The notes: generated by a model not told the origin, from the letters alone. Shown: positions 38,657-44,923, counted from the first letter of the stretch. The stretch is 64,000 nt of DNA from Candidatus Thermoplasmatota archaeon (GCA_035540375.1 DATLGO010000069.1:1-64000); one strand, 5' to 3'. Made by a program: numbers and translations.

Positions 38657-38905
38657 TCACCGCCGCCGCGCCACGATCGCGAGGATCGCCCGCGCGTGGC
38701 GCCGTCGGCGCACCGGGCCGAGGCCCGGGATGCCCGCGAGGTCCGCGCGCGTTCGCGGGCGCTCGCGCGCGATCGCGAGGAGGGTCGCGTTCGGGAGGAC
38801 CCGCCAGGGCGGCGCGCCGAGACGGCGCGCGGCTTCGCGGCGATAGGTCGCGAGGGCCTCAACGAGCGCATCGCCCGGGGGGAGGCGGACGGGAGCGGAG
38901 GGCAT
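38657..38905 (-). CDS. Stand-alone HRDC-domain protein
   Basis: 82 residues that are essentially one HRDC domain (LVEALATYRREAARRLG, PPWRVLPNATLLAIARERP, DLAGIPGLGPVRRRRHA). HRDC domains bind DNA or RNA and normally sit at the C-terminus of RecQ helicases and RNase D. A free-standing copy is unusual. It lies just upstream of rnpB on the same strand, so a link to RNA processing is conceivable but unproven. Confidence 0.75.
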   Translation of the reverse strand: MPSAPVRLPPGDALVEALATYRREAARRLGAPPWRVLPNATLLAIARERPRTRADLAGIPGLGPVRRRRHARAILAIVARRR

Positions 38906-38985
38906 GGGCCTCCCTCAACGCCGGCCGGGCCTTGGACCTGCTCCCGAGATCACGCCCGACGTGCGCCCGGCGCGGGACCAACAGG

Positions 38986-38993
38986 GCTTATCC
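38986..38993 (+). promoter_or_regulatory. TATA box of the uracil-DNA glycosylase gene
   Basis: GCTTATCC is centred about 26 nt before GTG 39015, an in-frame start 8 codons upstream of ATG 39039. Leaderless initiation at the GTG is therefore possible. Confidence 0.5.
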
Positions 38994-39038
38994 GCGCGAG
39001 GGGCTTGCGACCGCGTGCGGTCCATCCTTCCCGCGCCG

Positions 39039-39524
39039 ATGCCTCCCGGCTGCGCGAAATGCGCCCTCGCGGAGACGCGGACCCACATCGTCGTCTCGCG
39101 CGGCCGCGCGGACCGGCCGCGGCTCCTCGTCGTGGGGGAGGCGCCGGGGGCCGAGGAGGACGCCTCGGGCAGGCCGTTCGTGGGGCGAAGCGGCCGCCTT
39201 CTCGATCGCTGGCTCGCGGCGTGGGGGCTCGACGAGAACGACGTCCTCGTCACGAACGTGGTGCGATGCCGGCCGCCCGGAAACCGCAAACCCACGCCGG
39301 ACGAGCAGGCGGCGTGCGGCGCCCACCTCCTCCATCTGCTTCAAGAGGCGCGACCCGCGGCCGTCCTCGCGCTCGGGCGCACGGCCGAGCGGTGGCTGCG
39401 CGCGCAAGGCGTCGAGCCGCTGTTCATCTATCACCCGAGCTACTACCTGCGCGGCTACCGCAGGTGGGAGGGCGACGTCGCCGCCCTCGCGGCCCGTCTC
39501 CCCGCGCCCCGGTCAGAAGGTTGA
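39039..39524 (+). CDS. Family 4 uracil-DNA glycosylase
   Basis: 161 residues (169 if GTG 39015 is used). The four Cys ligands of the 4Fe-4S cluster are Cys5, Cys8, Cys77 and Cys93. GEAPGAEEDASGRPF is motif 1 with the catalytic region, and YHPSYYLR is the His motif. The enzyme removes uracil left by cytosine deamination, a strong need in a G+C-rich genome. The gene stands 22 nt before the PAC2 gene. Confidence 0.93.
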   Translation: MPPGCAKCALAETRTHIVVSRGRADRPRLLVVGEAPGAEEDASGRPFVGRSGRLLDRWLAAWGLDENDVLVTNVVRCRPPGNRKPTPDEQAACGAHLLHLLQEARPAAVLALGRTAERWLRAQGVEPLFIYHPSYYLRGYRRWEGDVAALAARLPAPRSEG

Positions 39525-41466: not shown

Positions 41467-41503
41467 GCGAAGCTTCACCCCGCGTCGCGTCGGAGGAGAA
41501 CGC

Positions 41504-42295
41504 ATGCCCCAGACCGTCTGGAAGGGTAGCGTGGGCTTCGGCCTCGTGAGCCTGCCCGTCCGCATGCACACGAGCACGCGCCCGAAGGGGGTCTCGTTCC
41601 GACTGCTGCACGCCGAGGACCACGCGCCCGTGAAGAACAGGCGCGTCTGCTCAGCCGACGGGAAGGCGCTCGAAAGCGAGGAGATCGTGCGCGGCGCGGA
41701 CCTCGGCGGCGGGCGCTACGTCGAGCTCACCGACGAGGAGCTGGAGGCGATCACGCCGGCTTCCTCGAGCCTCATCGACGTCCGCGAGTTCGTCGACGCG
41801 GGCGCGATCGACCCGGTCTACCACGAACGGACGTACGTCCTCACGCCCCAGGCGGGGGGCGAGAAGGTGTACGAGCTGCTCCGGCGCGTCCTCGCGCGCG
41901 AGAATCGCGCGGCGATCGGTCTGGCCACCCTGCGCGAGCGCGAGCATCTCATCGCGATCCGGGCGACCGAGGACGGTCTTTTCGCGGACATCCTCCGGTT
42001 CGCGGACGAGGTCGCCGATCTGCCGAAGGTCGAAAGCCAGGCGGAGATCAGCGACGAGGAGGAGGAGCTTGCCGAGATGATCGTCGGCCGCATGACGAAA
42101 GGATTCGATCCCTCGAAGTACAAGGATTCCTACGAATCGCGCGTCCGCAGCCTCATCGACGCCAAGATCTCGGGCGGGGCCGTTCCCGTGGAGGCCGCGC
42201 CCGCGGCTCCCCGGCCCACCGCGGATCTCGTCGCGGCGCTGCGCGAGACGCTCGCGTCGGCCGAGAGCGGGGAGCATGCCCGTTCCGTTCATTAA
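41504..42295 (+). CDS. ku: Ku protein (bacterial-type, NHEJ)
   Basis: A 263-residue homodimeric Ku. It starts with the hallmark VWKGSVGFGLVSLPV, has KNRRVC, the DVREFVD and DPVYHERTYVL bridge region, and the MTKGFDPSKYKDSYE core end, then a short Ala/Pro tail. Ku rings thread onto double-strand DNA ends and recruit ligase and polymerase. The ATG has a GGAGGAG ribosome-binding site. It overlaps polX by 20 bp. Such genes are scarce in archaea and usually thought to come from bacteria. Confidence 0.95.
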   Translation: MPQTVWKGSVGFGLVSLPVRMHTSTRPKGVSFRLLHAEDHAPVKNRRVCSADGKALESEEIVRGADLGGGRYVELTDEELEAITPASSSLIDVREFVDAGAIDPVYHERTYVLTPQAGGEKVYELLRRVLARENRAAIGLATLREREHLIAIRATEDGLFADILRFADEVADLPKVESQAEISDEEEELAEMIVGRMTKGFDPSKYKDSYESRVRSLIDAKISGGAVPVEAAPAAPRPTADLVAALRETLASAESGEHARSVH

Positions 42296-43991
42296 CGAGT
42301 CCGTCTCGGCGTTCCTCCTTTCGTACGCCGACGTCGAGAGCGCCTGGTACGAGCGCTATCGTCCCCGCGCGTACACGCGCGCATCCCAGGCCTTCCGGGC
42401 GCTCGGCGAGAGCGCCGACGACCTGCTCGCGCGCGAGGGAATCGACGGCCTGAGACGGCTCCCGGGCGTCGGGGCCTCCATCGCCGACGAGGTCGCGGAG
42501 TTCCTGCGCGAGGGCCGCGTCGCCGCCTACGAGGTCCGCCGCGAGGGGCTTCCACGGGGCTTCGACGATCTCGTCGCGCTCGAAGGCATGGGCGGCAGGC
42601 TCGCGCGGCGCCTCAAGGAGGAGGCGGCCATCGAGACGGTCGCGGACCTCGCGCGCGCGCTCGACGACGGTCGACGACTGCCGGGCGTCGATTCCGGGAA
42701 GGCGACCGCGCTTCGCGAGGCGATCCGCCTCGCGCCCTTGCGCCGGGGTTCGATCCCGCTCCCGGAGGCCCGCGCGCTCGCGGAGGCGATCCGGGACGCC
42801 CTCGCGACGGTCCCAGGCGTCGAGGAGATCCACGTCACCGGGAGCGTGCGCCGCGGCAAGCCGCTCGTCGGCGATCTCGATTTCGTCGCGCGCGCGACGG
42901 ATCCGCGGCCCGTCATGCGCGCGTTCGCCTCGCTTCCCGTGGTCCGCCGCGTCTTCAGCCTCGGCGCGACGCGCACGCTCGTCCTGCTCGAGAACGGCGT
43001 CGACGCCGATCTCGTCGTCGCGCCCGAGGCGGGGTTCGGGCCGGCGCTCCAGTATTTCACGGGCGCGCTCGAGCACACCGTCGCGCTTCGCGAACGCGCG
43101 AACCGCATCGGCCTCGAGGTCGCGAACGTGTCGATCGCCAAGGGCGGCGTCCCGATCGCCGCGCCCGACGAAGCCGCGTTCTACCGCGCGCTCGGCCTTC
43201 GATGGATGCCGCCCGAGATCCGGGAGTACACGGGGGAGATCGAGGCGGCCGAGCGCGGGACGCTTCCGCGGCTCGTGGAGCGGACGGATCTCCGGGGCGA
43301 CCTCGTTCGCGTTCCTCTGCCGGAGGAGGGGGTCACGGTTCCGGATTTCGCGCGGGAATCGCGCGCGCTCGGACTCGCGTGGCTCGCCGCAGTCCTCACC
43401 GCCGCCGAATGGGGGCCGGAGAACGCAAGCCGTTTCCTCGACGGCATCGACGCGCCCGAACGCGGCGAATTCGGGATCGCCTACGGGATCGAAGCCGCCA
43501 TCCTCCCCGACGGGAGCCTCGACGCGCCCGCCGCCGCGCTCGATCGCGCGGACTTCGTCGTCGCCGCGCTTCCCGACGACGCGGCGGGCGGAAAGTCCGA
43601 GCTCACGGCGCGTGTCGTCGAGGCGCTCGCCGACCCCCGCGTCCGCGTCCTCGCGCACCCCTCGGGACGGCGGCTCTCGACCCGGACGGAGGCCGGCATC
43701 GATCTCCGGAGGGTCTTCGAGGAGGCCCGCGAGCGAGGCGTCCTGCTCGAAATCTCGGGGGAACCCGACCGACTCGACCTCGACGGTCCGCGGGTGCGGC
43801 TCGCGCGAGGCGTCGGGGCCCGTTTGATCCTCGCGAGCGGGGCGCGCGCGCCCGCCGAGATGCGTCCGAACGCGCGCGAGGCGCTCGTCCAGGCCCGACG
43901 GGGCTGGGCGGGCCCCCGCGACATCGCCTCGACCGGTCCGCTTCCGTTCCCGCGGCCGCCGCGCGCCGCGCGCATCGCGCAGGAGGGGTGA
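42276..43991 (+). CDS. polX: Family X DNA polymerase with degenerate PHP domain
   Basis: 571 residues, the full PolX length. The N-terminal 8-kDa domain has an HhH motif (RRLPGVGASIADEVAEFL). The nucleotidyltransferase core shows GSVRRGK with GDLD and a later DADLVV, so the three catalytic Asp are present. The C-terminal region follows the PHP exonuclease domain strand by strand, but the metal ligands are mostly lost: GDLHxHT is GDLVRVP, the TDHS motif is LTAAE, and the final DAH is SGA; HPSGR and LEI remain. It is inferred to be a gap-filling polymerase without 3'-5' exonuclease activity. Coupled to ku and to the ligase. Confidence 0.92.
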   Translation: MPVPFINESVSAFLLSYADVESAWYERYRPRAYTRASQAFRALGESADDLLAREGIDGLRRLPGVGASIADEVAEFLREGRVAAYEVRREGLPRGFDDLVALEGMGGRLARRLKEEAAIETVADLARALDDGRRLPGVDSGKATALREAIRLAPLRRGSIPLPEARALAEAIRDALATVPGVEEIHVTGSVRRGKPLVGDLDFVARATDPRPVMRAFASLPVVRRVFSLGATRTLVLLENGVDADLVVAPEAGFGPALQYFTGALEHTVALRERANRIGLEVANVSIAKGGVPIAAPDEAAFYRALGLRWMPPEIREYTGEIEAAERGTLPRLVERTDLRGDLVRVPLPEEGVTVPDFARESRALGLAWLAAVLTAAEWGPENASRFLDGIDAPERGEFGIAYGIEAAILPDGSLDAPAAALDRADFVVAALPDDAAGGKSELTARVVEALADPRVRVLAHPSGRRLSTRTEAGIDLRRVFEEARERGVLLEISGEPDRLDLDGPRVRLARGVGARLILASGARAPAEMRPNAREALVQARRGWAGPRDIASTGPLPFPRPPRAARIAQEG

Positions 43992-44923
43992 GCACGCTCG
44001 ATTTCGCGCGCCTCCAGCCGATGCTCGCGCTCGAGGCCAAGGCGCCTTTCGACGATCCTCTCTGGGGATTCGAGCCGAAGATCGACGGATTCCGCGCGCT
44101 CGCGCGCGTCGTCGACGGCCGGGCGCGACTCAAGAGCCGGCGCGGCCTCCCGCTCGACGATCGGTTTCCCGAGGCCGCGAAGGCCCTCGGCGACGCCGTG
44201 CTTCCCGACGAAGCCGTCCTCGATCTGGAGGTCGCGGTCCTCGACGACCTCGGTCGACCCGATTTCGCGCGGACACTCGCGGGCGAAGGCGCCGTAACGT
44301 GCTTCGTCTTCGACGTCCTCGAGCGCGACGGCGTGGCGCTCCTCGATCGACCGCTCGCGGAGCGCAAGGCCCTCCTCGCGGCGTCGCTCCTCCCGACGCC
44401 GGGCGTGACCGCGCTCGAACTTCACGCGGAGCACGGGCGCGAGGTCTTCCGCGCCGCGGTGTCCCTCGGGTTCGAGGGCGTCGTGGCGAAGCGTCTCGAC
44501 GCCCCGTACCGCCCGGGCGAGCGCAGCCGCGCATGGCTCAAGGTCAAGGCCGTCCGCGAAGCGGATTTCGTCGTCGGCGGCGCCACCGAGGGCGCGGGCC
44601 GCGTCGCGGGCGGCATCGGGGCGCTCGCGCTCGGCCTCTTCTCCGGCGGGAGTTTCGTGTTCCAGGGGCTCGTGGGATCGGGCCTCTCCGAGCGCTCGCG
44701 CGCGGAGCTCGAACGCGCCCTCGCGCCGCACCGCGTCGCGGATCCGCCCTTCGCGGATCCGCCCAGGGGCGTCGCTCGCTGGTTCCGTCCGGCGGTGGTC
44801 GTGCGCGTCCGTTTCCTCGAGCGGACGCGGGACGGACGGCTGCGCGCCCCGCGCTACGCCGGGCTCAGGCCCGACCTCGATGCCCCGTCCCTCACCGTGG
44901 AAGGTGCCTTTCCGGCGCGGTAG
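43988..44923 (+). CDS. ATP-dependent DNA ligase (LigC/LigD ligase-domain type)
   Basis: 311 residues. The adenylation motif EPKIDGFR places the catalytic Lys at position 31. Further motifs are FEGVVAKRLDAPYRPG (motif IV) and AWLKVK (motif V), followed by an OB-fold with LGLFSGGSFVFQG and VVVRVRFLERT. It matches the single-domain ligases of bacterial end joining, not the replicative archaeal ligase. The GTG start overlaps the polX stop. With Ku and PolX it makes a three-gene end-joining set. Confidence 0.93.
   Translation: MSTLDFARLQPMLALEAKAPFDDPLWGFEPKIDGFRALARVVDGRARLKSRRGLPLDDRFPEAAKALGDAVLPDEAVLDLEVAVLDDLGRPDFARTLAGEGAVTCFVFDVLERDGVALLDRPLAERKALLAASLLPTPGVTALELHAEHGREVFRAAVSLGFEGVVAKRLDAPYRPGERSRAWLKVKAVREADFVVGGATEGAGRVAGGIGALALGLFSGGSFVFQGLVGSGLSERSRAELERALAPHRVADPPFADPPRGVARWFRPAVVVRVRFLERTRDGRLRAPRYAGLRPDLDAPSLTVEGAFPAR

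Follow-up and report, generated by a model that had tools for sequence, protein, structure and literature searches.

A ku-polX-lig operon in a Thermoplasmatota archaeon: a candidate end-joining set in which a family X polymerase may stand in for the LigD-type polymerase

The eukaryotic form of non-homologous end joining (NHEJ) combines Ku70/80, the family X polymerase Pol lambda or Pol mu, and ligase IV, with the two polymerases entering the end-joining complex through a BRCT domain. In the archaeon Methanocella paludicola, the work is done by Ku, Pol, PE, and Lig as separate proteins (PMC4797286). Family X polymerases (PolX) have also been described beside prokaryotic repair genes: noncanonical PolX adjoins LigD in Alphaproteobacteria, the end-joining-linked PolX of bacteria have been argued to be nucleases, with LigD giving the polymerase activity, and a canonical PolX lies beside an ATP ligase in Methanomicrobia (PMC9226535). 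That PolX can be tied to end joining has thus been described before, in bacteria; the archaeal operon discussed below is the reverse arrangement.

The operon lies in a 64,000-nucleotide stretch of DNA (the window) from a Candidatus Thermoplasmatota archaeon and consists of three genes on the plus strand. The first, ku (41504..42295), encodes a single-domain, bacterial-type Ku of 263 amino acids and is directly preceded by an SD-like sequence, GGAGGAG, on the same strand (41492..41498); the second, polX (42276..43991), encodes a family X DNA polymerase of 571 amino acids with a degenerate PHP domain; and the third, lig (43988..44923), directly preceded by an SD-like AGGAGG, encodes an ATP-dependent DNA ligase of 311 amino acids, made of adenylation and OB parts and carrying the active site KIDGFR. 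The overlaps described in the first-pass annotation were confirmed by the ORF coordinates, with ku and polX sharing 20 bp (42276-42295) and polX and lig sharing GTGA (43988-43991), and the three genes are presumably co-transcribed. The 5' boundary of the neighbourhood is a divergent IF-2B-family gene, and on the other side 47 bp separate the ligase stop from the start of a type III polyketide-synthase-like gene. Codon-position GC has the bias of coding sequence in each of the three genes, and in polX it extends from end to end, through the PHP part as well; together with the profile matches, this rules out chance ORFs. A contaminating segment is also ruled out, as the operon shows no shift in GC content from its surroundings and is carried on an 83-kb contig.

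With the Methanocella system the locus has in common Ku, a stand-alone LigD-type ligase, the logic of a split LigD, and co-encoded subunits, whereas its polymerase is of the PolX and not of the primase-like LigD kind, and the genome yields no convincing match to the phosphoesterase of LigD (at best E 0.43 and 11 bits with TIGR02777). With the NHEJ-associated PolX of bacteria it shares the tie of a PolX to end-joining genes, but those proteins keep the PHP nuclease, while the operon PolX has kept the palm and lost the PHP site. The PolX-ligase pair of Methanomicrobia represents the same type of archaeal neighbourhood, although no ku is mentioned and no loss of the PHP site is reported there. 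The likeness to eukaryotic NHEJ, which would be convergent, consists of Ku, a family X polymerase apparently devoid of PHP function, and an ATP ligase; the archaeal set differs in having a single type of Ku, a single-domain ligase, a presumably inert PHP domain that is still attached, and no BRCT domain detectable in the operon PolX with Pfam. An initial suggestion that the pairing of Ku with PolX follows a eukaryote-like logic is strengthened by the operon PolX having neither the PHP metal site nor a PHP domain that Pfam detects, as is the case for eukaryotic PolX.

Our main reading, to which we assign a probability of roughly 0.55, is that PolX replaced the LigD-type primase-polymerase in an archaeal NHEJ operon. 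Ku, by analogy a homodimer, would grip both broken ends, the operon PolX would fill the short gaps of the aligned ends by means of its 8-kDa/HhH domain and palm, and the single-domain LigD-like ligase would close the nick. With its PHP domain inactive, the operon PolX would add nucleotides without trimming, and a second, unlinked PolX of the same genome (L047) may provide the trimming of 3' ends. Physical cooperation with Ku, the enzyme activities, and this division of labour between two PolX proteins are all predicted here from sequence.

The Ku protein gives a full-length profile match (TIGR02772, 248 bits against an equivalog cut-off of 150, residues 4-249; PF02735, 139 bits), and in the Ku tree it is placed, with modest support (80/85), near the proteins of three phylum members discussed below (G004, G002, and G076). 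The ligase is matched by the Pfam families DNA_ligase_A_M/A_C (PF01068, 90 bits; PF04679, 75 bits) and by the ligase domain of M. tuberculosis LigD (1vs0; E 6e-48), which it resembles; it is built of adenylation and OB parts only. The label "LigD-type ligase" given at first reading is better put as LigD-ligase-like: the KxDGxR motif is present and TIGR02779 is covered in full, with a score of 211 bits that lies just below the equivalog-domain cut-off of 227.75. The ligase tree offers no settled placement for the operon ligase, and Ku, PolX, and ligase all sit on long branches in their trees.

The genome (G000; 3.13 Mb, 110 contigs, completeness 97.04, contamination 1.65) encodes one Ku, three ATP ligases, and two PolX. 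It contains no TIGR02778 match at E<=10, the profile by which the LigD-type polymerase was sought and which gives the expected match in B. subtilis; neither a second ku nor an accompanying LigD primase-polymerase, the finding that the first-pass annotation named as counting against its proposal, is present among its genes, and the proposal is not refuted on this point. Measured against the archaeo-prokaryotic NHEJ set of Ku with LigD-type Pol, PE, and Lig, the genome is wanting in both Pol and PE. It could be argued that an ordinary LigD-type polymerase is encoded on an unassembled part of the genome, which is 97% complete and divided among 110 contigs, and that the position of polX beside ku is incidental; we consider this very improbable, since the assembly leaves no gap around ku on its 83-kb contig and the polymerase gene adjoins ku in G004, G002, and G076.

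The class to which the archaeon belongs is represented by seven genomes, four of them with Ku. A member of the same family (G004) has the order lig-ku-PolDom, where PolDom stands for the LigD-type polymerase, a member of the same order (G002) has ku-PolDom, and a further phylum member (G076) again has lig-ku-PolDom; because these three carry PolDom beside ku, polX can be said to stand in the polymerase position of the operon. Another genome (G005) has a PolDom fragment beside Ku at a contig end, with another fragment on a second contig, and a PolX that is palm-dead with the triad R-H-T. The three Ku genomes of the class other than G000 thus have a LigD-type polymerase and no palm-intact PolX, and each Ku genome of the class combines one candidate end-joining polymerase, either PolDom or a palm-intact PolX, with a separate intact PHP. 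The PolX of G002 and G004 (L075 and L076) are reduced to HhH and PHP, with no palm; comparable "PolX-like" proteins have been reported almost only from Actinobacteria (PMC12926913). A class member with no Ku (G006) has an intact bifunctional PolX, and it also contains a LigD-polymerase-like stretch interrupted by internal TGA and TAA codons (L054; G006:C41:32310-32642), which is probably the remnant of a lost end-joining set.

Among Ku genomes of the phylum, 12 of the 14 that lack PolDom encode a PolX with an intact palm, versus one of the four that have it (Fisher p 0.044, kinship ignored and the incomplete genome G227 set aside), a contrast dominated by a single family (f5) that supplies 10 of the 14 genomes; the pattern is no more than suggestive. 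The palm-dead PolX of the phylum carry the triads RAE, RHT, and NMM, and one PolX split over two frames (G003) was left unscored for its palm. These comparisons also bear on a different role for the operon PolX, namely gap filling and dRP lyase activity in base excision repair, with the gene merely co-transcribed in a general break-repair cassette. For the PolX of T. thermophilus and B. subtilis, a part in base excision repair has been put forward (PMC9226535), and a uracil-DNA glycosylase family gene is located 2 kb upstream of the operon (38904-39524); however, the tight overlap of polX is with ku and lig and not with the glycosylase gene, and a LigD polymerase occupies the same place in other class members, so that we regard such a role as improbable.

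The arrangement is so far known from one genome, with no close relative sharing it. Within the phylum, Ku is found in 19 of 390 genomes, and the other 18 Ku loci comprise 12 ku-lig, two lig-ku-PolDom, and one ku-PolDom arrangements and three loci cut by contig ends, with polX adjacent to ku in none of them. Of 394 genomes from the archaeal phylum of Halosimplex, 63 encode Ku, and their 66 Ku loci, scored with profiles from small alignments that distant PolDom or PolX might escape, fall into 43 ku-lig pairs, 18 loci with PolDom, four with ku alone, and one with PolX (L219, described below). The search of archaeal genomes for ku-polX-lig neighbourhoods that had been recommended at the outset returned the operon in G000 but no palm-intact PolX beside Ku at any of 84 other archaeal loci. 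The operon is likewise absent from 20 PolX loci of the genome collection, viral contigs contain no relative of it, and among plasmid PolX (34 records) the two places inspected have no ku. Most of these archaeal Ku loci (L028-L045, L156-L245) are ku-lig pairs with no adjoining LigD-type polymerase. Three loci (L194, L195, and L203) contain single long open frames matching both Ku and ligase profiles, and these are possible archaeal Ku-ligase fusions.

The operon PolX aligns with T. thermophilus PolX along residues 27-553 (E 9e-82), matches the Pfam HHH_8, HHH_5, and thumb families, with HhH starting at residue 7, and presents the 8-kDa/HhH, palm, thumb, and PHP-fold regions in family X order, while its NCBIfam PRK08609 score of 205 bits is under the cut-off of 426. 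Its AlphaFold model (pLDDT 91.5) finds as best PDB match 3auo (TM 0.85), the T. thermophilus PolX on gapped DNA. In the palm (42753..43043, plus strand), judged by the invariant columns of a 33-sequence alignment, G189-S190, R193, D200, D202, and D245 are kept and R247 is replaced by V, so that the acidic triad D200, D202, D245 is that of a canonical PolX (PMC9226535). In the downstream polymerase segment (residues 257-333; 43044..43274, plus strand), YFTG 260-263 and R272 are kept, and S264A, K265L, N268T, and NEY283-285 to ANV are the changes. The R247 column is R in 70 of 72 other PolX, and the fingers residues R247, N268, and NEY283-285 are near-invariant in the same 72 proteins. We take R247 to occupy the Arg258 column of Pol beta, and N268 appears, on our assumption, to correspond to Asn279 of that enzyme. 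In the alignments, the operon PolX and Pol mu both have V in the Arg258 column, where Pol lambda has I. Arg258 of Pol beta is described as a gate-keeper residue (PMC3662701), and a case has been made that the rigidity of Pol mu is an asset in end joining (PMC5557891). The segment with the changed residues matches, among PDB entries, T. thermophilus PolX and then Pol mu/Pol lambda, at an E of only ~0.002. The lost fingers residues may reflect decay of the polymerase or, alternatively, a changed, Pol mu/lambda-like mode, which we note as a lead; because of their loss, the polymerase activity of the operon PolX is uncertain, and as a polymerase it may be weak or dying.

Carried further, the same losses could mean that the polymerase half is decaying along with the PHP half and that the protein survives as a non-catalytic scaffold that binds DNA ends or bridges Ku and ligase. 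Inactive polymerase subunits are known in other systems, and besides the loss of R247, N268, and NEY283-285, the operon PolX keeps fewer of the conserved positions than the PolX of another family of the phylum (f7), namely 12/17 in the palm versus 15-17/17 and 22/31 in the downstream segment (257-333) versus 26-31/31. We nevertheless judge a scaffold role unlikely: the protein retains the three metal ligands, GSxRR, and YFTG, exactly the features that the palm-dead PolX of the phylum have lost, and coding bias is even along polX.

The PHP-like domain (43275..43946, plus strand) keeps only E406, H461, and E492 of the nine ligands, HHHEHHEDH, by which the metal site is scored in canonical PolX (PMC9226535), the other six being lost; catalytic residues were compared across about 70 PolX. 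Pfam PHP gives no match in the operon PolX, although it does in the other PolX of the genome, and the nuclease of the former is most probably inactive. Published surveys report an entire PHP motif for 88-98% of prokaryotic PolX (PMC9226535) and its conservation in 95% of the main bacterial PolX group (PMC12926913), which makes the operon PolX one of the unusual cases. The second PolX (L047; contig C41, 3728-5419) is its reverse: the palm triad reads R-A-E, GS has become GE and YFTG has become ESTG, and the PHP ligands are present, as in noncanonical, nuclease-only PolX. Judged by these residues, the same genome would encode a polymerase-type PolX in the operon and a nuclease-type PolX elsewhere.

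That the operon PolX itself acts as a 3'-end nuclease, as in the published model for bacterial end-joining-linked PolX (PMC9226535), has a possible archaeal precedent in another phylum, where a palm-dead, PHP-intact PolX of the nuclease type lies beside frame-broken copies of ku and lig (L219, 2456-6149, G684); with six of nine PHP ligands lost and no Pfam PHP match in the operon protein, this explanation is disfavoured and we consider it highly improbable. At that other locus, an ORF that looks by eye like a LigD phosphoesterase adjoins PolX.

Degenerate PHP domains also occur in the PolX of family f7 (L126-L139) and of JOPF Thermoplasmata (L090, L092, and L094), which have strongly eroded PHP domains, although published surveys of PolX describe the PHP site as extremely conserved. 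These proteins share with the operon PolX an intact palm triad and lost PHP ligands, but their PHP domains are far more eroded and their genomes are without Ku; the existence of such proteins in Ku-less f7 genomes means that a lost PHP site is no particular mark of end joining. In the polymerase-part tree, the operon PolX groups with the f7 and JOPF proteins (100/99) and is nested in f7 (97/84), whereas the full-length tree, in which the PolX of named Thermoplasmata MAGs fall within f7, makes it sister to the f7/JOPF PolX (94/98), and the PHP-part tree places it between f7 and all others. A simple f7 origin was set aside in view of these conflicting trees, and PHP conservation (32/46 positions kept versus 11-20/46 in f7) makes it hard to derive the protein simply from inside that family. 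For an origin in the PolX of the class itself, the PHP part gives no rejection (AU test, p 0.11) and the polymerase part no support. Because the operon PolX sits on a long branch, of 1.7-1.9 changes per column, and differs in base composition, we favour no particular origin for it.

A wider version of our main reading, which we offer more tentatively, is that in one lineage PolX displaced the primase-like polymerase and the activities of PolX were split between two genes, yielding a convergent counterpart of Ku-Pol lambda/mu-ligase IV. The operon is the opposite of the bacterial case, in that the LigD polymerase is absent, the polymerase site of PolX is kept, and the nuclease site is lost. Whether PolX can act as a polymerase in prokaryotic end joining thereby becomes a test-tube question of three proteins, for which L047 is a matched nuclease-only partner from the same genome. 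The wider gap to which it belongs is that, as the many ku-lig pairs illustrate, archaeal end joining frequently lacks an obvious gap-filling polymerase.
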